From Iningainema tapete BLCC-T55 (GTDB lineage Bacteria; Cyanobacteriota; Cyanobacteriia; Cyanobacteriales; Nostocaceae), in contig NZ_JACXAE010000086.1 in assembly GCF_014698965.1 (NCBI RefSeq), positions 248,001 to 312,000 of the forward strand: a stretch of 64,000 nt of DNA, read 5' to 3'. A program made the translations under genes and the position numbers. Positions 51,075 to 59,611 of the stretch are shown piece by piece (positions within the stretch are counted from its first letter, which is position 1; each line of letters begins with the position of its first letter). A model generated the notes under the pieces. That model did not search any database and had not been told where the DNA came from. It was given only the letters and a program-made list of their open reading frames with translations.

Positions 51075-52019
51075 ATGAACGCCTTAGAACTAAAGAGCAA
51101 ACGCATCCTAGTTACCGGTGGGGCTGGTTTCCTGGGACGTCAGGTGATCAACCAACTGACACTAGCAGGCGCAGAGCAAGAGAAAATAACAGTAGTGCGA
51201 TCGCGTGACTGCAATTTGTGCGTCATGGAAAATTGCCAACGTGCAGTTGACCAACAAGATATTATCATCCACCTAGCAGCTCACGTTGGTGGCATTGGTC
51301 TAAATCGAGAAAAACCAGCCGAATTGTTCTACGACAATTTGATGATGGGGACACAGCTGATTCATGCAGCTTATCAAGCTGGAGTAGAAAAATTTGTCTG
51401 TGTTGGCACTATCTGTGCCTACCCCAAATTTACCCCAGTTCCATTCAAAGAAGATGACCTTTGGAATGGCTACCCAGAAGAAACCAACGCCCCTTATGGC
51501 ATCGCCAAAAAAGCCCTTCTCGTCCAACTCCAAGCTTATCGCCAGCAGTACGGTTTCAACGGTATTTATTTATTACCAGTAAACTTATACGGACCAGAAG
51601 ACAACTTCGATCCCAGAAGTTCCCATGTCATCCCCGCTTTGATTCGTAAAGTTCAGGAAGCACAACTGAAGGGAGAAAAGAAACTCCCAGTTTGGGGTGA
51701 TGGCAGTCCTACCCGTGAGTTCTTGTATTCCGAAGATGCCGCACGAGGCATTGTTATGGGTACTCAATTATACAACGATCCCGAACCAGTGAACTTGGGA
51801 ACAGGCTATGAAATCTCCATCCACGATTTGATTAATCTCATCTGCGAGTTAATGGAGTTTGATGGCGAAATTGTTTGGGAAACCGACAAACCCAATGGAC
51901 AACCCCGCCGTTGTTTGGATACCGAACGGGCAAAGCAGGCCTTTGGTTTTACCGCTCAAGTAGATTTCAAGCAAGGTTTGAAAAACACAATTGAGTGGTG
52001 GCGCAAAAACGCTGCATGA
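51075..52019 (+). CDS. fcl: GDP-L-fucose synthase
   Basis: 314 residues. Rossmann motif [52 protein letters not shown] and catalytic [13 protein letters not shown] (Y-x3-K). It epimerises and reduces the gmd product to GDP-L-fucose. With gmd it supplies fucose to the polysaccharide made by this locus. Followed by a strong hairpin. Confidence 0.95.
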
Positions 52020-52022
52020 TCG

Positions 52023-52055
52023 AGATCCCCGACTTCTTTAAGAAGTCGGGGATCT
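52023..52055. terminator. 16-bp perfect hairpin between convergent genes
   Basis: Arms AGATCCCCGACTTCTT (52023-52038) and exact complement (52040-52055) between fcl (+) and the SDR gene (-). It differs from 2405-2437 by one base pair. Likely bidirectional terminator. Confidence 0.75.
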
Positions 52056-52066
52056 GTTTCATTTAA

Positions 52067-53008
52067 CTACTTAGTTATATAACCACCTGTGGCATCAATA
52101 TCAGTGCCAACCATAATCGTGGCATCTTCAGAAGATAGCCACATGACAACTCGTGCCATTTCTTCTGCCGTTGCTAACCTGTTGATTGGATACTCTTTAG
52201 CAGTAGTTTCTATCGTAGTACCCCAAGAACTTAGTGCGCGGCGCAACATGGGCGTGTCAACAGCGCCAGGGGAAAAGGAGTTGACACGGATATTTTTGCT
52301 TGTAAGTTCCATTGCCCCAGTTCTTGTTAAAGACATGATTCCAGCCTTACTTGCCCCGTAAGGCGCAATATTTGGAAAGCCTTGATGTCCACCAACAGAA
52401 GCTGTGTTTACAATTATACCACCACCCAGCCTACTCATAACGGGAATCTCATACTTCATCGACAGAAAAACGCCTGTCGCATTTGTTGCTATAACGTTGT
52501 TCCACTCCTCCAATGACAATTCTGCGATACTTTTTGGTGGAGCTTCGATCCCAGCGTTGTTGAAGGCAATGTCTATACGGCGGTATTTCTGAACACAGCC
52601 ATTAATGAAATTTCTGACATCGCCTTCTTTTCTCACATCTGCTTGCATATAAGTCGCTTCACCACCAAAGGCTTGAATTTCGCGCACATTCGCTTCACCT
52701 AAATTTGTCCGACGACCACAGAAAAACACTTTGGCTCCTTCTTTGGTAAAAGCGTAAGCAGTAGCTTTACCGATACCAGATGTAGCTCCGGTAATCAGTA
52801 CAACTTTGTCTTTGAATCTGCCGTTAGGATTTGCTTTAGCAGTTTCTGGTTCTACTGGTTTTTGAGTGTTGGCAAAAGCACTTTTAGTTGTTGTGGCTGC
52901 TGCTAATCCCACTACTCCTGCACCAATAATTTCGCGCCGCGTAATTGGGGAATTTTTTCTTTTACTACTTTCGTCTGATTGTTGATTCGGATTTTTTGTG
53001 CTGCTCAT
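52067..53008 (-). CDS. Short-chain dehydrogenase with twin-arginine-type signal (paralogue)
   Basis: 313 residues from the Met giving MSSTKNPNQQSDESSKRK; an ATG at 53035 adds nine. The signal ITRREIIGAGVVGLAAATTTKSAFA is Tat-like. The SDR core shows TGATSGIGKATAYAF, NNAGIEAPPKS and YGASKAGI. It resembles 17368-18276 throughout, including the NTQKP linker after the signal. It lies 193 bases downstream of an AraC-family gene on the same strand, which probably controls it. Confidence 0.87.
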   Translation of the reverse strand: MSSTKNPNQQSDESSKRKNSPITRREIIGAGVVGLAAATTTKSAFANTQKPVEPETAKANPNGRFKDKVVLITGATSGIGKATAYAFTKEGAKVFFCGRRTNLGEANVREIQAFGGEATYMQADVRKEGDVRNFINGCVQKYRRIDIAFNNAGIEAPPKSIAELSLEEWNNVIATNATGVFLSMKYEIPVMSRLGGGIIVNTASVGGHQGFPNIAPYGASKAGIMSLTRTGAMELTSKNIRVNSFSPGAVDTPMLRRALSSWGTTIETTAKEYPINRLATAEEMARVVMWLSSEDATIMVGTDIDATGGYITK

Positions 53009-53090
53009 GGCAAGTTTCCAGCGGTGTACTCTCAAATCAAAGGAGGAAATAGAACAATAGACATCGACCGAATTTAATTGCGCATTATCT

Positions 53091-53119
53091 GTCGAGACGT
53101 TCCGCCGGAACGTCTCTAC
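53091..53119. repeat. GTAGAGACG palindrome
   Basis: Arms GTCGAGACGTTCC and GGAACGTCTCTAC around GCC, in the gap between the AraC and SDR genes; one arm has a point change. Confidence 0.75.
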
Positions 53120-53201
53120 TGTTTGCCATATTACAGAAATTTGTCAAGGCTGTCTTTTCAGTTCTTACGCTAAATGTTGTAATCTTACGAAAAATGTAGG
53201 T

Positions 53202-54101
53202 CTAAAATTTGGTTTGTTCTCGATACGCTCTTGGCGTTGTTCCCATTAACCTCCGAAACACTGTGGTAAAGTGGCTATGGTTCTGGAAACCCACGCGATC
53301 GCAAACCTCAATAATTGATAATTTATTCTCAGCTAGTAATGCCTTAGCCCACTCAATTCTGCACTTGAGTACGTACTGATGGGGAGACAAACCAGTTGAT
53401 CGTTTGAACAAACTGATAAAGTAATTTGGGCTTAACTTGACCACGGCAGCAAGTTCAGCTAAGGTTAAATCTCGTGATAAATTATCGTTTATATACTCAA
53501 TTGCTAGGCGTAACTTGGACGGCGGTAGACCATCAGTGTATTTTTTAATAGTTGGTAATGCTGAATAATGTCTAAGGAGATGAACAGCTAGCGTGGTTGC
53601 CATCGATTCCACGTAGAGACGACTCATGGCTACCCCATCTTTAACCTCTGCCAACAGTGCTAACCCCATCTGTTGGATGAGTGGATCGCGGATTCTTAAG
53701 TGTGGAATAATCTCAACATGGTTAGCTTCTAGGGATTGCTCTGTGGCTTTTACAACTAATTCCGGCTCTAAACGCAGAGCAATATATTCAGCTATTCCGT
53801 ACCAGCGCTCCCAGTTTGGCAGATGAGCTGGTATTACACTCAAATCACCACTGACTGAGTACCCGCTTTGAAATCGTCCATTCACCACATTTTCTACCTT
53901 GATAGGAGAACCAACTTGAATGGCAATTAGGTGTTGTGGCAGGCAATGTTCAGGAATTTCAAAGGAGGGTTGACGATGATGTTCTATGATAATGCCATTC
54001 CACGCTTGCGGCTTGCTGGAAAGAATAGGTAAATTGGGCAGAATATCTGGCAGAGTAACTTTATCAATGGAGTCTTCGGTTTTAGGCTTATCCTCAGGCA
54101 T
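53202..54101 (-). CDS. AraC-family transcriptional regulator
   Basis: 299 residues. A variable cupin-like sensing half is followed by the AraC DNA-binding domain with two helix-turn-helix units: NLSRDLTLAELAAVVKLSPNYFISLFKRSTGLSPHQYVLKCRI and LSIIEVCDRVGFQNHSHFTTVFRRLMGTTPRAYR. It probably controls the SDR gene downstream; the inducer is unknown. The start is placed at MPEDKPKTEDS. Confidence 0.9.
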   Translation of the reverse strand: MPEDKPKTEDSIDKVTLPDILPNLPILSSKPQAWNGIIIEHHRQPSFEIPEHCLPQHLIAIQVGSPIKVENVVNGRFQSGYSVSGDLSVIPAHLPNWERWYGIAEYIALRLEPELVVKATEQSLEANHVEIIPHLRIRDPLIQQMGLALLAEVKDGVAMSRLYVESMATTLAVHLLRHYSALPTIKKYTDGLPPSKLRLAIEYINDNLSRDLTLAELAAVVKLSPNYFISLFKRSTGLSPHQYVLKCRIEWAKALLAENKLSIIEVCDRVGFQNHSHFTTVFRRLMGTTPRAYREQTKF

Positions 54102-54110
54102 GATTTTGGA

Positions 54111-54290
54111 ATGGAAAAAGTAGAACTACGCAAATCGCTGCTCAAAACCCGTCAATTAATGACAGTAGCACAGTGGAGAGAAAAGAGCGATCGCTCTTGT
54201 GCCTATTTACCTCAGTTACCGATTGAACCGTGGGAAAAACTTTTACAAGCTATTTGCACAAAAACAGGGAAAATATCTTTCAGTTGGTAG
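54111..54290 (+). pseudogene. Internally deleted 5-formyltetrahydrofolate cyclo-ligase copy
   Basis: A 59-codon frame whose first ~28 codons (EKVELRKSLLKTRQLMTVAQ) nearly match the intact gene at 54912-55502. The remainder (AYLPQLPIEPWEKLL, then TKTGKISF) matches that gene's C-terminus. About 115 central codons, including the ATP site GYGGGYYDR, are missing. A HIP1 octamer (GCGATCGC, 54187-54194) sits exactly at the junction. It cannot be active. With the intact copy it brackets the RelE/Phd pair. Confidence 0.75.
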
Positions 54291-54341
54291 GGCAAATTCC
54301 CCTACTTATTGTTTTTAGCAGTACAATTATGCTTGTAAGGC

Positions 54342-54665
54342 ATGACACCACAGCAACCCTTTGAACTAATCTATGCTTCTGAAGTAGTGCAGCATCTCTT
54401 GGCAATTGAGCGCAAATATCATTCACAGATCCGTAGTATAATTGAGGAGCAGCTAAGCTATGAACCAGAAGTTGAGACACGTAACCGAAAACCATTGCTA
54501 CGACCATCGGAATTAGGCTTTACTTGGGAATTACGCTTTGGTTCCAATAATCGATTTCGGGTGTTTTATCGAACTGAGTTATCAGAAAAACAAGTTTATA
54601 TTCTAGCTATTGGTGTCAAAGATGGTAATACCTTATTTATAGGCGGCGAGGAATTTGAATTATGA
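54342..54665 (+). CDS. RelE/ParE-superfamily toxin
   Basis: 107 residues: FELIYASEVVQHLLAIERKYHSQIRSIIEEQL, LGFTWELRFGSNNRFRVFYRTELSEKQVYILAIGVK is the RelE fold of the Phd-associated (RelE-like, cytotoxic) group. It precedes its antitoxin, the reverse of most type II pairs. The antitoxin start overlaps its stop by four bases (ATGA). The frame is intact. Confidence 0.82.
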   Translation: MTPQQPFELIYASEVVQHLLAIERKYHSQIRSIIEEQLSYEPEVETRNRKPLLRPSELGFTWELRFGSNNRFRVFYRTELSEKQVYILAIGVKDGNTLFIGGEEFEL

Positions 54666-54919
54666 AAACTGTAACAATAGATGAAATCAAGGCAAATTTT
54701 AGTGAATACTTGAAACAATCTCAAAGTGAGCCGATTCTAATTATAGAAAATGGTCGCCCAGTAGCTGCAATTAATGTGGTTGTGGACGCAGAGGAATTAG
54801 AACGCCTGAGCTTAGCACATAATTCTCAATTCAATCAATTGTTGGAGACGGCTGAGCAAAGTATCCAAGAAACTGGCGGGATTAAGCATGATGACTTTTG
54901 GAAATTAGTAGATGGCTAG
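54662..54919 (+). CDS. Phd/YefM-family antitoxin
   Basis: 85 residues. MKTVTIDEIKANFSEYLKQ and PILIIENGRPVAAINVV is the Phd/YefM DNA-binding fold; the tail (ETGGIKHDDFWKLVDG) is the toxin-binding part. It is second in the operon, and its last eight bases overlap the start of the cyclo-ligase gene, so the metabolic gene is now tied to the toxin-antitoxin transcript. Confidence 0.85.
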   Translation: MKTVTIDEIKANFSEYLKQSQSEPILIIENGRPVAAINVVVDAEELERLSLAHNSQFNQLLETAEQSIQETGGIKHDDFWKLVDG

Positions 54920-55502
54920 TTACCATGAGAGTAGACGGATATGGGAAAAAGCAGAACTACGCAAATCGCTGCTCAAAACCCGTCAATCAATGACAGTAGC
55001 ACAGTGGAGGGAAAAGAGCGCGCGCCTCAGCACACACCTTCTATCCTCTCCCCTATTTACCTCAGCAAAAACAATACTTGCTTATTTCAGCTTTCGCCAA
55101 GAACCTGATTTAACTAACTTGTTTAGACAAACCCATTACTTTTGGGGATTTCCTCGTTGCGTGGGTAAATCGCTACATTGGCATCTTTGGAAAACCAACG
55201 ATTCTGTAATAACTGGGGCTTACGGTATAACTGAACCCCATCCCGATGCGCCTACTATAGATTCTGCCTTTGTCGATTTGATTCTCGTCCCTAGTGTTGC
55301 TTGCGACTATCAAGGTTATCGCTTAGGTTACGGCGGGGGATATTACGATCGCTTGCTGAGTTTACCTGAATGGGCATCAAAACCTACCATCGGTATTGTG
55401 TTTGATTTTGCCTATTTGCCCCAGTTACCTGTTGAACCGTGGGATCAACCATTGTCTGGTGTATGTACAGAAACAGGTTTGAAAATGATATCTATGTTGT
55501 AG
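54912..55502 (+). CDS. 5-formyltetrahydrofolate cyclo-ligase
   Basis: 196 residues. It converts 5-formyl-THF to 5,10-methenyl-THF with ATP. N-terminal EKAELRKSLLKTRQSM, substrate region ILAYFSFRQEPDL and the ATP-binding GYGGGYYDRLL are intact, as is the PVEPWDQPLSGVCTETG ending. The first 11 residues (MASYHESRRIW) come from the overlap with the antitoxin gene; an internal initiation near the pseudogene-like MEK start is not available here (the codon is TGG), so this start stands. Confidence 0.9.
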   Translation: MASYHESRRIWEKAELRKSLLKTRQSMTVAQWREKSARLSTHLLSSPLFTSAKTILAYFSFRQEPDLTNLFRQTHYFWGFPRCVGKSLHWHLWKTNDSVITGAYGITEPHPDAPTIDSAFVDLILVPSVACDYQGYRLGYGGGYYDRLLSLPEWASKPTIGIVFDFAYLPQLPVEPWDQPLSGVCTETGLKMISML

Positions 55503-55810
55503 AGACGTACATTGATATATCTGATGGATTATTTGATGAAAACAATTACGAATATATGCTTAATCTAAAGAATCTAAAACTTCTACAACGGCAATAATTT
55601 TAGTGAGTGCTATGTTTAAAAGTCCTTGTAATTGAGCATCTGCTAGTAGGCGTAGCATAGATGGTAGACCATTCATTTTTGTTTTGATTTAAGAAGTAAA
55701 CCAGGTATGGCATTGTGTTCTAAAGTAAAGAATCTTAAAAATAATCAGAACAAATATGTGTTAGAATAAGCGGGAAAGATTAAATTCGGTTGTGCAGTTT
55801 GTTTTTATCT
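55503..55810. other. Gene-free region before the RNA-binding protein
   Basis: About 310 bases with a half GTAGAGACG unit at the left edge. A minus-strand 38-codon frame at 55560-55676 (starting MNGLPSMLRLLADAQLQG, no ribosome site) is the only frame of note; it could be a gene remnant or a small protein, and I do not call it. Confidence 0.4.
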
Positions 55811-55894
55811 ATGTCTATCATTACAGACTTCTCCGGATCTAAATCTCAACGTCCTATGACTCTGGAGATGTTCTATGTCAATTTACATTGGTAA
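55811..55894 (+). CDS. Possible leader ORF overlapping the RRM gene start
   Basis: A 27-codon frame beginning MSIITDFSGSKSQRPMTLEM whose stop (TAA, 55892-55894) lies 20 bases inside the RRM gene, in another frame. It contains the GGAG ribosome site of the RRM gene. Translation of this frame could gate access to that site. It may be chance; no ribosome site of its own is evident. Confidence 0.3.
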   Translation: MSIITDFSGSKSQRPMTLEMFYVNLHW

Positions 55895-56213
55895 TTTATC
55901 TTACCAAGTTGGAGAAGAAGACCTTAAACGTGTGTTTTTAGAATATGGAACTGTTAAAAGCGTTCAAGTACCTATGGATCGCGAAAGTGGGCGGATGCGC
56001 GGTTTCGCCTTTGTAGAAATGGAAACGGAAGCAGAAGAAACTGCAGCGATCGAGTCTCTAGATGGCGCTGAGTGGATGGGGCGCAACCTCAAAGTTAACA
56101 AAGCTAAACCTAAGACTGACAACAGAGGTTCTTCATCTGGCGGCGGTAGATGGGGCGGCGGTAATAGAGATAGAGATAGAGATAGAGGAGGATACTCCCG
56201 AGGTGGTTACTAA
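55875..56213 (+). CDS. RRM RNA-binding protein, Gly/Arg-rich tail
   Basis: 112 residues. One RNA-recognition motif: RNP2 IYIGNLSY (residues 3-10) and RNP1 RMRGFAFVEM (about 41-50), then a flexible tail of Gly, Arg and Asp (GGRWGGGNRDRDRDRGGYSRGG). Cyanobacterial Rbp proteins of this type are cold- or stress-induced single-strand RNA binders acting in the cytoplasm. A GGAG ribosome site precedes the ATG. The tail contains a short RDRDRD tandem. Confidence 0.92.
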   Translation: MSIYIGNLSYQVGEEDLKRVFLEYGTVKSVQVPMDRESGRMRGFAFVEMETEAEETAAIESLDGAEWMGRNLKVNKAKPKTDNRGSSSGGGRWGGGNRDRDRDRGGYSRGGY

Positions 56214-56261: not shown

Positions 56262-56291
56262 TGTAGAGACGTTCCATAAAACGTCTCTACA
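56262..56291. repeat. GTAGAGACG palindrome
   Basis: Arms TGTAGAGACGT/ACGTCTCTACA around TCCATAAA, between convergent RRM and histidine kinase genes; possible terminator. Confidence 0.75.
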
Positions 56292-56400
56292 ACTGATTGA
56301 CAGAGCTATCCTTTGGTTGAAAGTATACTGGCGTAGTTAGAGCGTAAAGAGGATTTCGTAAACGACTCCTTCAATGAATTTGGGACTACTTTTGATTTAG

Positions 56401-59400
56401 TTAAATGGGGATGGCGATCGCTAATTCTGTTCCGAATCCTACAACTGATTCACAATTCAAATAACCTCCATGTTTTTCTACTACTATTTGATGACTGATA
56501 GATAAACCTAAACCTGTACCTTTACCTACTGTTTTCGTAGTATATAAATGTTCAAATATATGTGATTTAACCTCTGATGACATACCTTTGCCATTATCTT
56601 TAATCTTAATTATAACCATTTGACCATCTGGAGATAATTCGGTTGTAATAGTAATCATATTAGGTAGTTTTTCAATATCAGTAAAACTGTGTCCTTGATT
56701 AGATTCTTCTAAAGCGTCAATCGCATTTGCTAAGATATTCATAAATACCTGATTGAGTTGTCCTAAATAGCATTTGACTAGAGGAATATTTCCATATTCC
56801 TTGATAACTTTAATTGCCGGACGAGTATTATTGGCTTTGAGGCGATGTTGTAAAATCATTAAGGTGCTATCAATTCCCTCATGAATATTAGCTAGCACTT
56901 TAGAAGTAGTATCTGCACGGGAGAAAGTTCGTAGAGAATCACTAATATCACCTATCCTAATTGTACCAACTTTAACAGAATTAATTATTTTTAGTAAGTC
57001 TTCCGTAAGAAAATCTAAGTCAATTTCTGCTGCATGAGCCTCAACTACTGGTGCAGGATTAGAAGTGTGTTGTTGGTATAGTTGTAAATGTTCTAGTAAA
57101 TTGTGAATATATTCTTCTATGTGTTTAATATTACCAGAAATAGAAGTGAGCGGATTACTAATTTCATGAGCAACACCGGCTACCAATTGCCCAAGAGTAG
57201 ACATCTTTTCACTCTGTACTAGTTGAATTTGAGTCTGTTGCAAATCGTGTAGGGATTTAGATAGTTGCGCTGTTCTCTCGTGTACTCGTAGCTCTAACTC
57301 TTCTTCTCTGTGCTTTAGTTTAACATTTTGTTCTTCTAGTTTCTTGGTTAAATTTCGTAGTTTTAACTGCAACCGGACGCGAGCTAACACTTCTTCTTCT
57401 TGAAAGGGCTTAGTGATATAATCTACTGCTCCCAGATTAAAACCTTTGATCTTATCTGCTGTTTCATTTAGAGCAGTCATAAAAATTATAGGAATGTCAT
57501 ACAATTGTGGATTATCCTTTATTTTCTTACAGGTTTCAAAGCCATCGATACCAGGCATTTGAATATCTAGTAAAATTATATCTGGAGGAGCATAAGTGCT
57601 TTGCTTGAGCGCATTTTCGCCACTTGTAGCTACAGCCACATCAAAACCTGCATGAGTTAAAGATTCCGAGCTCATTCCCACACCAGTGTCTTCAATTTGG
57701 AAGCGAATTTTGTGCAATGGGCAATGGGCAATGGGCAATGGGCAATGGGCATCACTAATTTCCCTTTGCCCCATGCCCCATGCCCTATTCCCTATTACCT
57801 CTACTTTAAAAGTCACCCCTCCAGTGTCAGTAAATTTGATGGCGTTACCGAGTAGGTTAATTAATACTTGTCGTAGGCGTTTTTCGTCAGCATGAATGCC
57901 TTGGGGAAGTGAGTTTGCTTGGTACGTAAAAGTAATACCTTTTTGTTCTACCCGGATGCGACAAATTTCTACAACTCCTTGAAGGAAGGTAGGAAAATGA
58001 AAATCTGTCGGGTAGAGTTCCATTTTCTGTGCTTCAATTTTAGAGAGATCTAAAATATCGTTGATTAAGGTTAATAAGTGAGAACCACATTGATAAATAA
58101 TGTTGATGCCATTACGTTCTTTTTCTGCTATGCTTTGAGAGCGTTGCAGGATTTGAGCATAACCTAAAATGCCGTTGAGTGGTGTTCTTAGTTCATGGCT
58201 CATGTTTGCTAAAAATTCGCTCTTAGCATGATTGGCAGTATCAGCAACTTTTTTAGCTTCTTTTAGTTCTGCTGTACGTTCTTCGACTCGGATTTCTAGT
58301 TCTTGATTGGTTTTTTCCAAAGCATTAAAAGATTCTCGTAACTGAATAGCCATGCGGTTGAATGATTGAGCGAGAACTCCTAATTCGTTGACGCTGGATG
58401 CTTGGACTTTTTGGTTTAATTTTCCAGATGCTATCGCCTCACTAGCAATACCGATCCGCAGTATAGGCTGGGTAATCCAACGTGATGTATATATTCCCAG
58501 TACCGTAGCAAGAACAAGAGCGCCGAGACACAGAAGAATTGTGGTACGGGTGTTGGCATTAATTTGTGCCATGAAGTCAGATTCTGGCACAGCAACGACT
58601 ACCAACCAATCTAAACCCCATTCATCGCGCCAAGGTGTGACTTGAACAAACTGCCGCTCACCTTTAAGCTGAAAGTCAAGCTGGTGGTTATTTTTAATTT
58701 GACTCAATCCATTAAAGTGATTTTTCAAATATTGTGCTGTCGCCTGAATTAAAGGATCGCGACTTTCTGAAACACTGAGTCGTTTCGGTTTCCCATTCAC
58801 TATAGTGAAGGGCTGCTCGGTACTAGAAGTAGCAACTATTAGTCCATCGCGTTCCAATATAAAGGTTTTGCTGTTGGGACTAACTTTTAACTTCCGCAAG
58901 AAATCACTAATTTGTGTCAAGCGTTGATCGATACCGACGACACCAAGCAAATTTTTGTTGTGATCGTACACAGGGCGGTTGGCGGAGATTGCTAAAGGAT
59001 AGGGCGGTATTTCCCACTGATAAATTGGACTCCAAATCGGTTTACCTGCTTCAATTGTCTGTGTATACCAAGCCTCTTTTTGAAATTGGTAATTGGGAAA
59101 AGTATCAATCAGCTTGAGCCGATTTCCTTGGTCATCTGTTTGGTAGTTGTAGCTATCATTGTTACCATAGCGCTTTAGAGAAACATCATTAACAATGAGG
59201 CGAGTACCCTCAAAATTGTATCCATAGCCAGAGCCAGCAAATTCACCTGCACTGCTACCAAAGCTAATATAACCAACGTCATACAACCGCATTTGCTTCC
59301 AGAAGTAATGCCCCAGCTTTTCTAAGTCTTTTGGATCTAACAATCCCAAGTCGATCGCATCTCCATTGATTTGAGCCAAATGACGAGCCGTTTCGAGATA

Positions 59401-59611
59401 ACTATTTAGGTGTTGATCGATACGCAAGCAAACCTCGCTACGTAGACGGGAAGCGAGGTTGTTGACAGTTTTCTGCCCATTGCGTAATGATAGGTATCCA
59501 GTCAGCCCCACGGCGGCAAAGATTTGCAGTACAAAGGGAAGGACAAGGATTAGGCGTAGTGGTATTTTTTTTATACCTATTACCTGAAAACGAGTCTGGT
59601 TTTAATCGCAT
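56401..59611 (-). CDS. Rearranged hybrid sensor histidine kinase, N-terminal frameshift
   Basis: The long frame runs from a GTG at 59511 (1036 residues), but that start falls inside a membrane segment. The natural start appears to be ATG 59611 ([15 protein letters not shown]), joined to [20 protein letters not shown] by a one-base slip in an A8 run (59565-59572). Order: membrane span, periplasmic Cache-like sensor, second span, HAMP, HisKA 1 (H~439, [11 protein letters not shown]), truncated HATPase (ends at DTGVGM), receiver lacking its start ([10 protein letters not shown]), coiled coil, HisKA 2 (H~782) and complete HATPase ([13 protein letters not shown]). A GGGCAAT-repeat insertion lies in HATPase 1 (residues ~572-600, counting from the GTG). 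Confidence 0.8.
57714..57797. repeat. Heptamer repeat inserted in-frame in kinase coding sequence
   Basis: Five GGGCAAT-type heptamers (57714-57750) and an inverted GCCCCAT run (57768-57797) lie inside the first HATPase domain. They add ~28 residues ([12 protein letters not shown]) between TFKVEV and IRFQIEDTG without breaking the frame. Confidence 0.85.

Follow-up and report, generated by a model that had tools for sequence, protein, structure and literature searches.

A RelE/Phd toxin-antitoxin module lodged between a remnant and the intact copy of a cyanobacterial 5-formyltetrahydrofolate cyclo-ligase gene

The 5-formyltetrahydrofolate cyclo-ligase (MTHFS) gene of a cyanobacterial relative of Nostoc and Scytonema, with a genome of 9.5 Mb, directly follows a RelE/Phd toxin-antitoxin (TA) module, which itself follows a remnant of the same cyclo-ligase gene. 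Our preferred explanation, to which we assign a probability of roughly 60%, is that a segment bearing the module was inserted at the start of the cyclo-ligase gene and left about 82 bp of its target duplicated. In the window (the whole 64-kb stretch of DNA that was analysed) the order of elements is: gmd and fucS, a block of an SDR and an AraC-type regulator gene, the cyclo-ligase remnant (54111-54290), the module (54342-54919), the intact cyclo-ligase gene (54912-55502), and what is left of two genes, for an AMP-ligase and a hydrolase; remnant, module and intact gene all lie on the forward strand. The preliminary description of this DNA had placed the TA pair between the two copies and had let the antitoxin gene overlap the start of the intact one. 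Both observations hold, and the overlap of the two reading frames amounts to 8 nt (ATGGCTAG, 54912-54919).

The gene order in related genomes shows what was separated here. The GDP-L-fucose synthase gene fucS (51075-52019, forward strand) lies directly upstream of the cyclo-ligase gene in relatives: it was found on the same strand in 61 of the 82 related loci whose upstream sequence was long enough, mostly at a gap of about 100 bp. These fucS-cyclo-ligase loci have neither the module nor a second cyclo-ligase 5' end; the genomes compared are of other genera, and the empty site (a single copy, without the module) is deduced from these. On the downstream side, genome G213 has gmd, fucS and the cyclo-ligase gene and then, about 7 kb further on, two genes of the opposite strand, for an AMP-ligase (adenylate-forming) and a hydrolase, and these two also occur downstream of the cyclo-ligase gene in G018, G065 and G066. 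In the window, directly after the intact copy, a relic of the AMP-ligase gene with one internal stop (55506-55665, reverse strand) is 62% identical over 53 codons to the gene downstream of the G018 cyclo-ligase, and a relic of the gene for the metallo-beta-lactamase-fold hydrolase (56290-56350, reverse strand) is 80% identical to G018 over 20 codons; the two relics stand in the same order as in G018. The fucS side thus adjoins the remnant and the relics of the ancestral downstream genes adjoin the intact copy, i.e. the ancestral flanks stand on opposite sides of the pair, which indicates that the module split a native locus. Together with the single 5' ends of the module-free relatives, this bears out the earlier proposal that the arrival of the module was linked to the duplication of the cyclo-ligase 5' end. 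No relative was found to carry both copies without a RelE module, apart from one parallel case (G018) in which a different selfish gene is involved.

Some further features of the neighbourhood deserve mention. The SDR and AraC-type genes (52062-54107, reverse strand) form a conserved pair, translocated together to their place between fucS and the remnant; at the DNA level the block is 84% and 80% identical to sequences at other places in two Scytonema-type genomes. This homology stops at 54107, 4 bp before the ATG of the remnant, so that two rearrangements with almost coincident end points must be accepted. A near-perfect palindrome with 23-nt arms (52016-52062) immediately follows fucS and marks the left edge of the block, and similar sequence also follows fucS in relatives. 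An RNA-binding protein gene (55875-56213) separates the AMP-ligase relic from the hydrolase relic. Further downstream, the first ATPase region of a histidine kinase ORF of 1036 aa (56401-59511) seems to be disturbed by a stretch of 23 residues, apparently the in-frame translation of a short dispersed repeat. Near the locus there are neither transposase genes nor Rfam elements, and PADLOC defence models gave no match.

Alignment of 54111-54290 with 54912-55502 verifies that the remnant, with its 59 open codons, corresponds to both ends of the cyclo-ligase gene and lacks the middle, about 380 bp. To say that it matches both ends, as had been done previously, is right in that both blocks are real, but it hides a clear difference in divergence between them (94-96% versus 71-75% identity). 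The 5' block (54113-54194 against 54944-55025, both on the forward strand) extends over 82 bp with 94% identity, and over its first 77 bp 74 positions are identical (96%). A scan of the 64-kb window for direct repeats (75 bp with at least 70 matches, spaced 0.1-3 kb apart) found this pair as the only one of such quality, and its high identity suggests that the repeat is young. The 3' block (54197-54268 against 55406-55477, 72 bp) is 75% identical in the alignment, and the similarity is real: its local alignment score of 38 compares with 9.5 +/- 1.3 and a maximum of 15 in 1000 shuffles. A terminator-like hairpin with a T-rich tail (54286-54306, forward strand; predicted fold -17.7 kcal/mol, z -1.7) follows the remnant.

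This unequal divergence is the key to the history of the locus. A comparison of 117 related cyclo-ligase genes gave 151 pairs with at least 94.5% identity at the 5' end, and in not one of them does 3' identity fall below 82%, compared to 71% over 72 positions for remnant and intact copy in the same comparison. Since the contrast between the two ends is absent among related genes, a single simple duplication is an insufficient explanation, and a lone tandem duplication as the sole cause can be ruled out. The remnant must instead be a mosaic, in which either the 5' ends have been homogenised or the 3' end has come from elsewhere. With maximum likelihood the 5' block is placed beside the intact copy as its sister, with a margin of 14 lnL units over the next branch, and the 3' block on a branch other than that of the intact copy, favoured by 7 lnL units (AU test p=0.10 with 72 nt). 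This placement suggests, and no more than suggests, that the 3' end came from a foreign or separate source. The intact copy itself branches with Scytonema/Rhizonema-like genes, as a native gene should, and this grouping lends no support to a foreign origin of that copy.

The mechanism that we prefer would account for the mosaic as follows. A segment with the toxin-first RelE/Phd module would have entered the start of a native, single-copy cyclo-ligase gene, for example as a circle integrated by a single crossover, and the first 82 bp or so of the gene would have been left on both sides of the insert. The left duplicate would be the present remnant, after its fusion to an older or foreign cyclo-ligase 3' end that the segment probably brought along; the right duplicate, continuous with the native gene body, would be the working gene. 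That the segment carries a cyclo-ligase 3' end and a hairpin suggests an entry by recombination with another cyclo-ligase gene, and a donor in which a cyclo-ligase 3' end adjoins relE was not found. A direct duplication of the target (82 bp, 94%) on both sides of the insert is what insertion with long target duplication leaves behind. In the simple form of that mechanism, by our own reading of it, the insert holds no other sequence of the target gene, whereas here the diverged cyclo-ligase 3' end lies between the repeats.

Alternatively, the cyclo-ligase gene could have been duplicated in tandem long ago, with the module inserted between the copies, the left copy decayed by internal deletion, and the 5' ends made alike by gene conversion. 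Such a course of events explains the diverged 3' end without any donor, a common origin of the 3' ends passes the AU test at the p-value given above, and a 14-bp repeat (CCTATTTACCTCAG at 55052 and CCTATTTGCCCCAG at 55411 in the intact gene, with CCTATTTACCTCAG at 54202 of the remnant) may have given rise to the deletion. We nevertheless regard it as rather unlikely, for it requires four events and a conversion tract confined to the first 82 bp, and an intermediate with two full copies was seen in no genome of the family.

The module itself consists of two genes on the forward strand: a relE/parE-type toxin gene (54342-54665, 107 aa) and a phd/yefM-type antitoxin gene (54662-54919, 85 aa), which overlap at an ATGA (54662-54665). 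The antitoxin belongs to its family by the cut-offs of both PF02604 (41.2 bits) and TIGR01552 (34.6 bits). The toxin taken alone has a match to PF05973 that stays below threshold, but 8 of the 11 members of its protein family match PF05016 (ParE_toxin), the profile of that family reaches YoeB/RelE structures, and the predicted structure (pLDDT 90.7) matches RelE of the Mycobacterium tuberculosis RelBE2 system with TM scores of 0.67-0.86. The assignment thus goes through the family members and the predicted fold, by which the protein is to be classed as a divergent member of the RelE/ParE group, weakly recognisable alone and clear as a family. Presumably it acts as an mRNA interferase that is neutralised by Phd. 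The cyclo-ligase, at any rate, shows no sign of being the biochemical target of this toxin; it is the site of insertion.

Homologs of the module occur in 15 of 210 genomes of the family (E up to 1e-3) and in 10 of 386 genomes of the phylum (E up to 1e-10), and the closest one, 62-63% identical, belongs to another family. Wherever the pair is visible the toxin gene comes first, and G337, G018 and other genomes carry the two overlapping genes as a conserved unit at unrelated sites. None of the 27 loci fetched has a homolog of the module beside a cyclo-ligase gene. At the DNA level the module region is left uncovered by all matches listed for 218 genomes of the family except the window's own, and searches of known plasmids, phages and IMG/VR contigs gave no match for it. 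Judged by this distribution, the module is a sporadic visitor.

The intact cyclo-ligase gene gives every appearance of a bona fide MTHFS gene: it scores 167.6 bits against TIGR02727, an equivalog model with a cut-off of 84.9, it retains all of the near-invariant residues (61 of 61), and its dN/dS of about 0.25, similar to that of its relatives, points to purifying selection. It is the sole PF01812 match in the genome, which by this model has no second cyclo-ligase, and a search with PF02971 for a glutamate formimidoyltransferase (FTCD) in the genome was negative as well.

The gene seems to have paid for the insertion with its own start. The former start codon (54941-54943, forward strand), compared with the starts of relatives, which coincide with the codon aligned to 54945 or precede it by about 11-14 codons, has been shifted +1 out of frame by a single extra G (ATGGGAAAAAG, versus ATGGAAAAAG in the remnant). 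Given that this ATG is out of frame, and with no in-frame ATG, GTG or TTG between 54912 and the conserved region, the sole in-frame start is the ATG at 54912, inside the 3'-terminal codons of phd. Both copies begin at the coding sequence itself, which means that neither has kept the native upstream region. Expression from the promoter of the module had been proposed in the preliminary description, and a weak consensus scan indeed found no separate promoter directly upstream of 54912, nor any promoter-like site on the forward strand from beyond 54551 (in the middle of relE) to the intact gene; the scan gave no excess over shuffles in this region. A TACAAT is present at 54322, upstream of relE. 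In the absence of an in-frame start of its own or an obvious promoter, reliance of the gene on the module transcript is plausible, and we infer that the module's promoter may drive it and that its translation may begin at the ATG at 54912, coupled to that of phd.

If the extra G were an error of the assembly, the old start would be restored: the gene would begin at 54941 and would overlap phd merely by chance. The difference is a single base in a short GGG-AAAAA run, and the remnant as well as the relatives have an in-frame ATG or GTG at or near the old start. On the other hand the G is present in the assembly, and the frame is open upstream as far as an ATG that overlaps the stop codon of phd, so that we consider an error unlikely.

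What the loss of the module would mean for the host differs from what had been expected. According to the preliminary description, it could cost the cell a folate enzyme. If the 82-bp repeats recombined, however, 831 bp with the entire module would be lost, leaving a complete cyclo-ligase gene of 186 codons that begins with the ATG at 54111 (MEKVELRKSLLK...), albeit one that, from what is visible upstream, would be without a promoter. As the likeliest loss of the module would thus repair the cyclo-ligase gene, the argument for addiction is weaker than was held. This bears on the idea that the coupling was selected, i.e. that the module gained from making the sole cyclo-ligase depend on it and so strengthened the addiction. 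The single-copy state of the gene, the missing second route (by PF02971) and the start inside phd all fit this idea, as do the TA genes within the metabolic transcription unit of the Synechocystis hox operon, for which a stabilising effect has been proposed (PMC4963859). Yet the arrangement is seen in one genome only, recombination of the repeats would excise the module, and Escherichia coli deletions of ygfA are viable, with lower persister levels (PMC6605009), from which it follows that a cyclo-ligase need not be essential; we hold such selection to be very improbable. A more elaborate picture, in which the sole cyclo-ligase is the third gene of a TA operon, its translation coupled to the antitoxin, folate interconversion also set by the autoregulation of the module and by release of the toxin under stress, and recombination of the repeats yielding occasional module-free cells with a free-standing gene, would be a quite speculative extension.

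The interval between fucS and the cyclo-ligase gene seems to take up mobile genes repeatedly. In G018 (L147:9151-11618) a selfish gene likewise lies between two cyclo-ligase copies of which one is truncated, with an order different from that in the window: the full copy comes first, an Rpn-type nuclease gene replaces RelE/Phd, and the second copy lacks the 5' end (about the first 42 codons). The two G018 copies are about 98% identical, and the case appears to be a separate duplication around another selfish gene. TnpB-like ORFs lie between fucS and the cyclo-ligase gene in G005 (L143:7766-8969) and an Rpn-type gene in the fucS/cyclo-ligase neighbourhood of G213, with all TnpB-like and Rpn-type names, including that in G018, read from the translations, not from a family search.

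Among known systems the closest parallel to insertion with duplication of about 82 bp comes from restriction-modification systems, for which insertion with long target duplication has been reported (Nobusato et al. 2000, as cited in PMC3031569). To the extent of that citation, the likeness is an addiction-type gene pair in a chromosome, flanked by a long direct duplication of its target; the differences are a type II TA pair, a duplication of 82 bp, and an inner side that carries a cyclo-ligase 3' end. With the hox operon the locus shares a TA module lodged in a cyanobacterial metabolic unit, but the modules differ, and the available part of PMC4963859 describes hox without a target duplication or a split gene. 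The same source presents ssl7038-ssl7039 of Synechocystis as a reverse-order RelE/HigB-type module with the toxin gene first. The toxin of the present module resembles it in belonging to the RelE superfamily, in its gp49 similarity and in the inverted gene order, whereas the antitoxin here is of the Phd/YefM type.

The locus is therefore not a new system but a tidy example of a selfish module that has settled beside a housekeeping gene. As a fossil it is rather complete, and it records how a small TA module can become fixed at a housekeeping locus without a transposase nearby: the target would have been duplicated, the host gene's own start lost, and the reading frame of the module put to use. 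The direct repeats, still retained, provide a handle on the question of whether such modules can go without harming the host gene.
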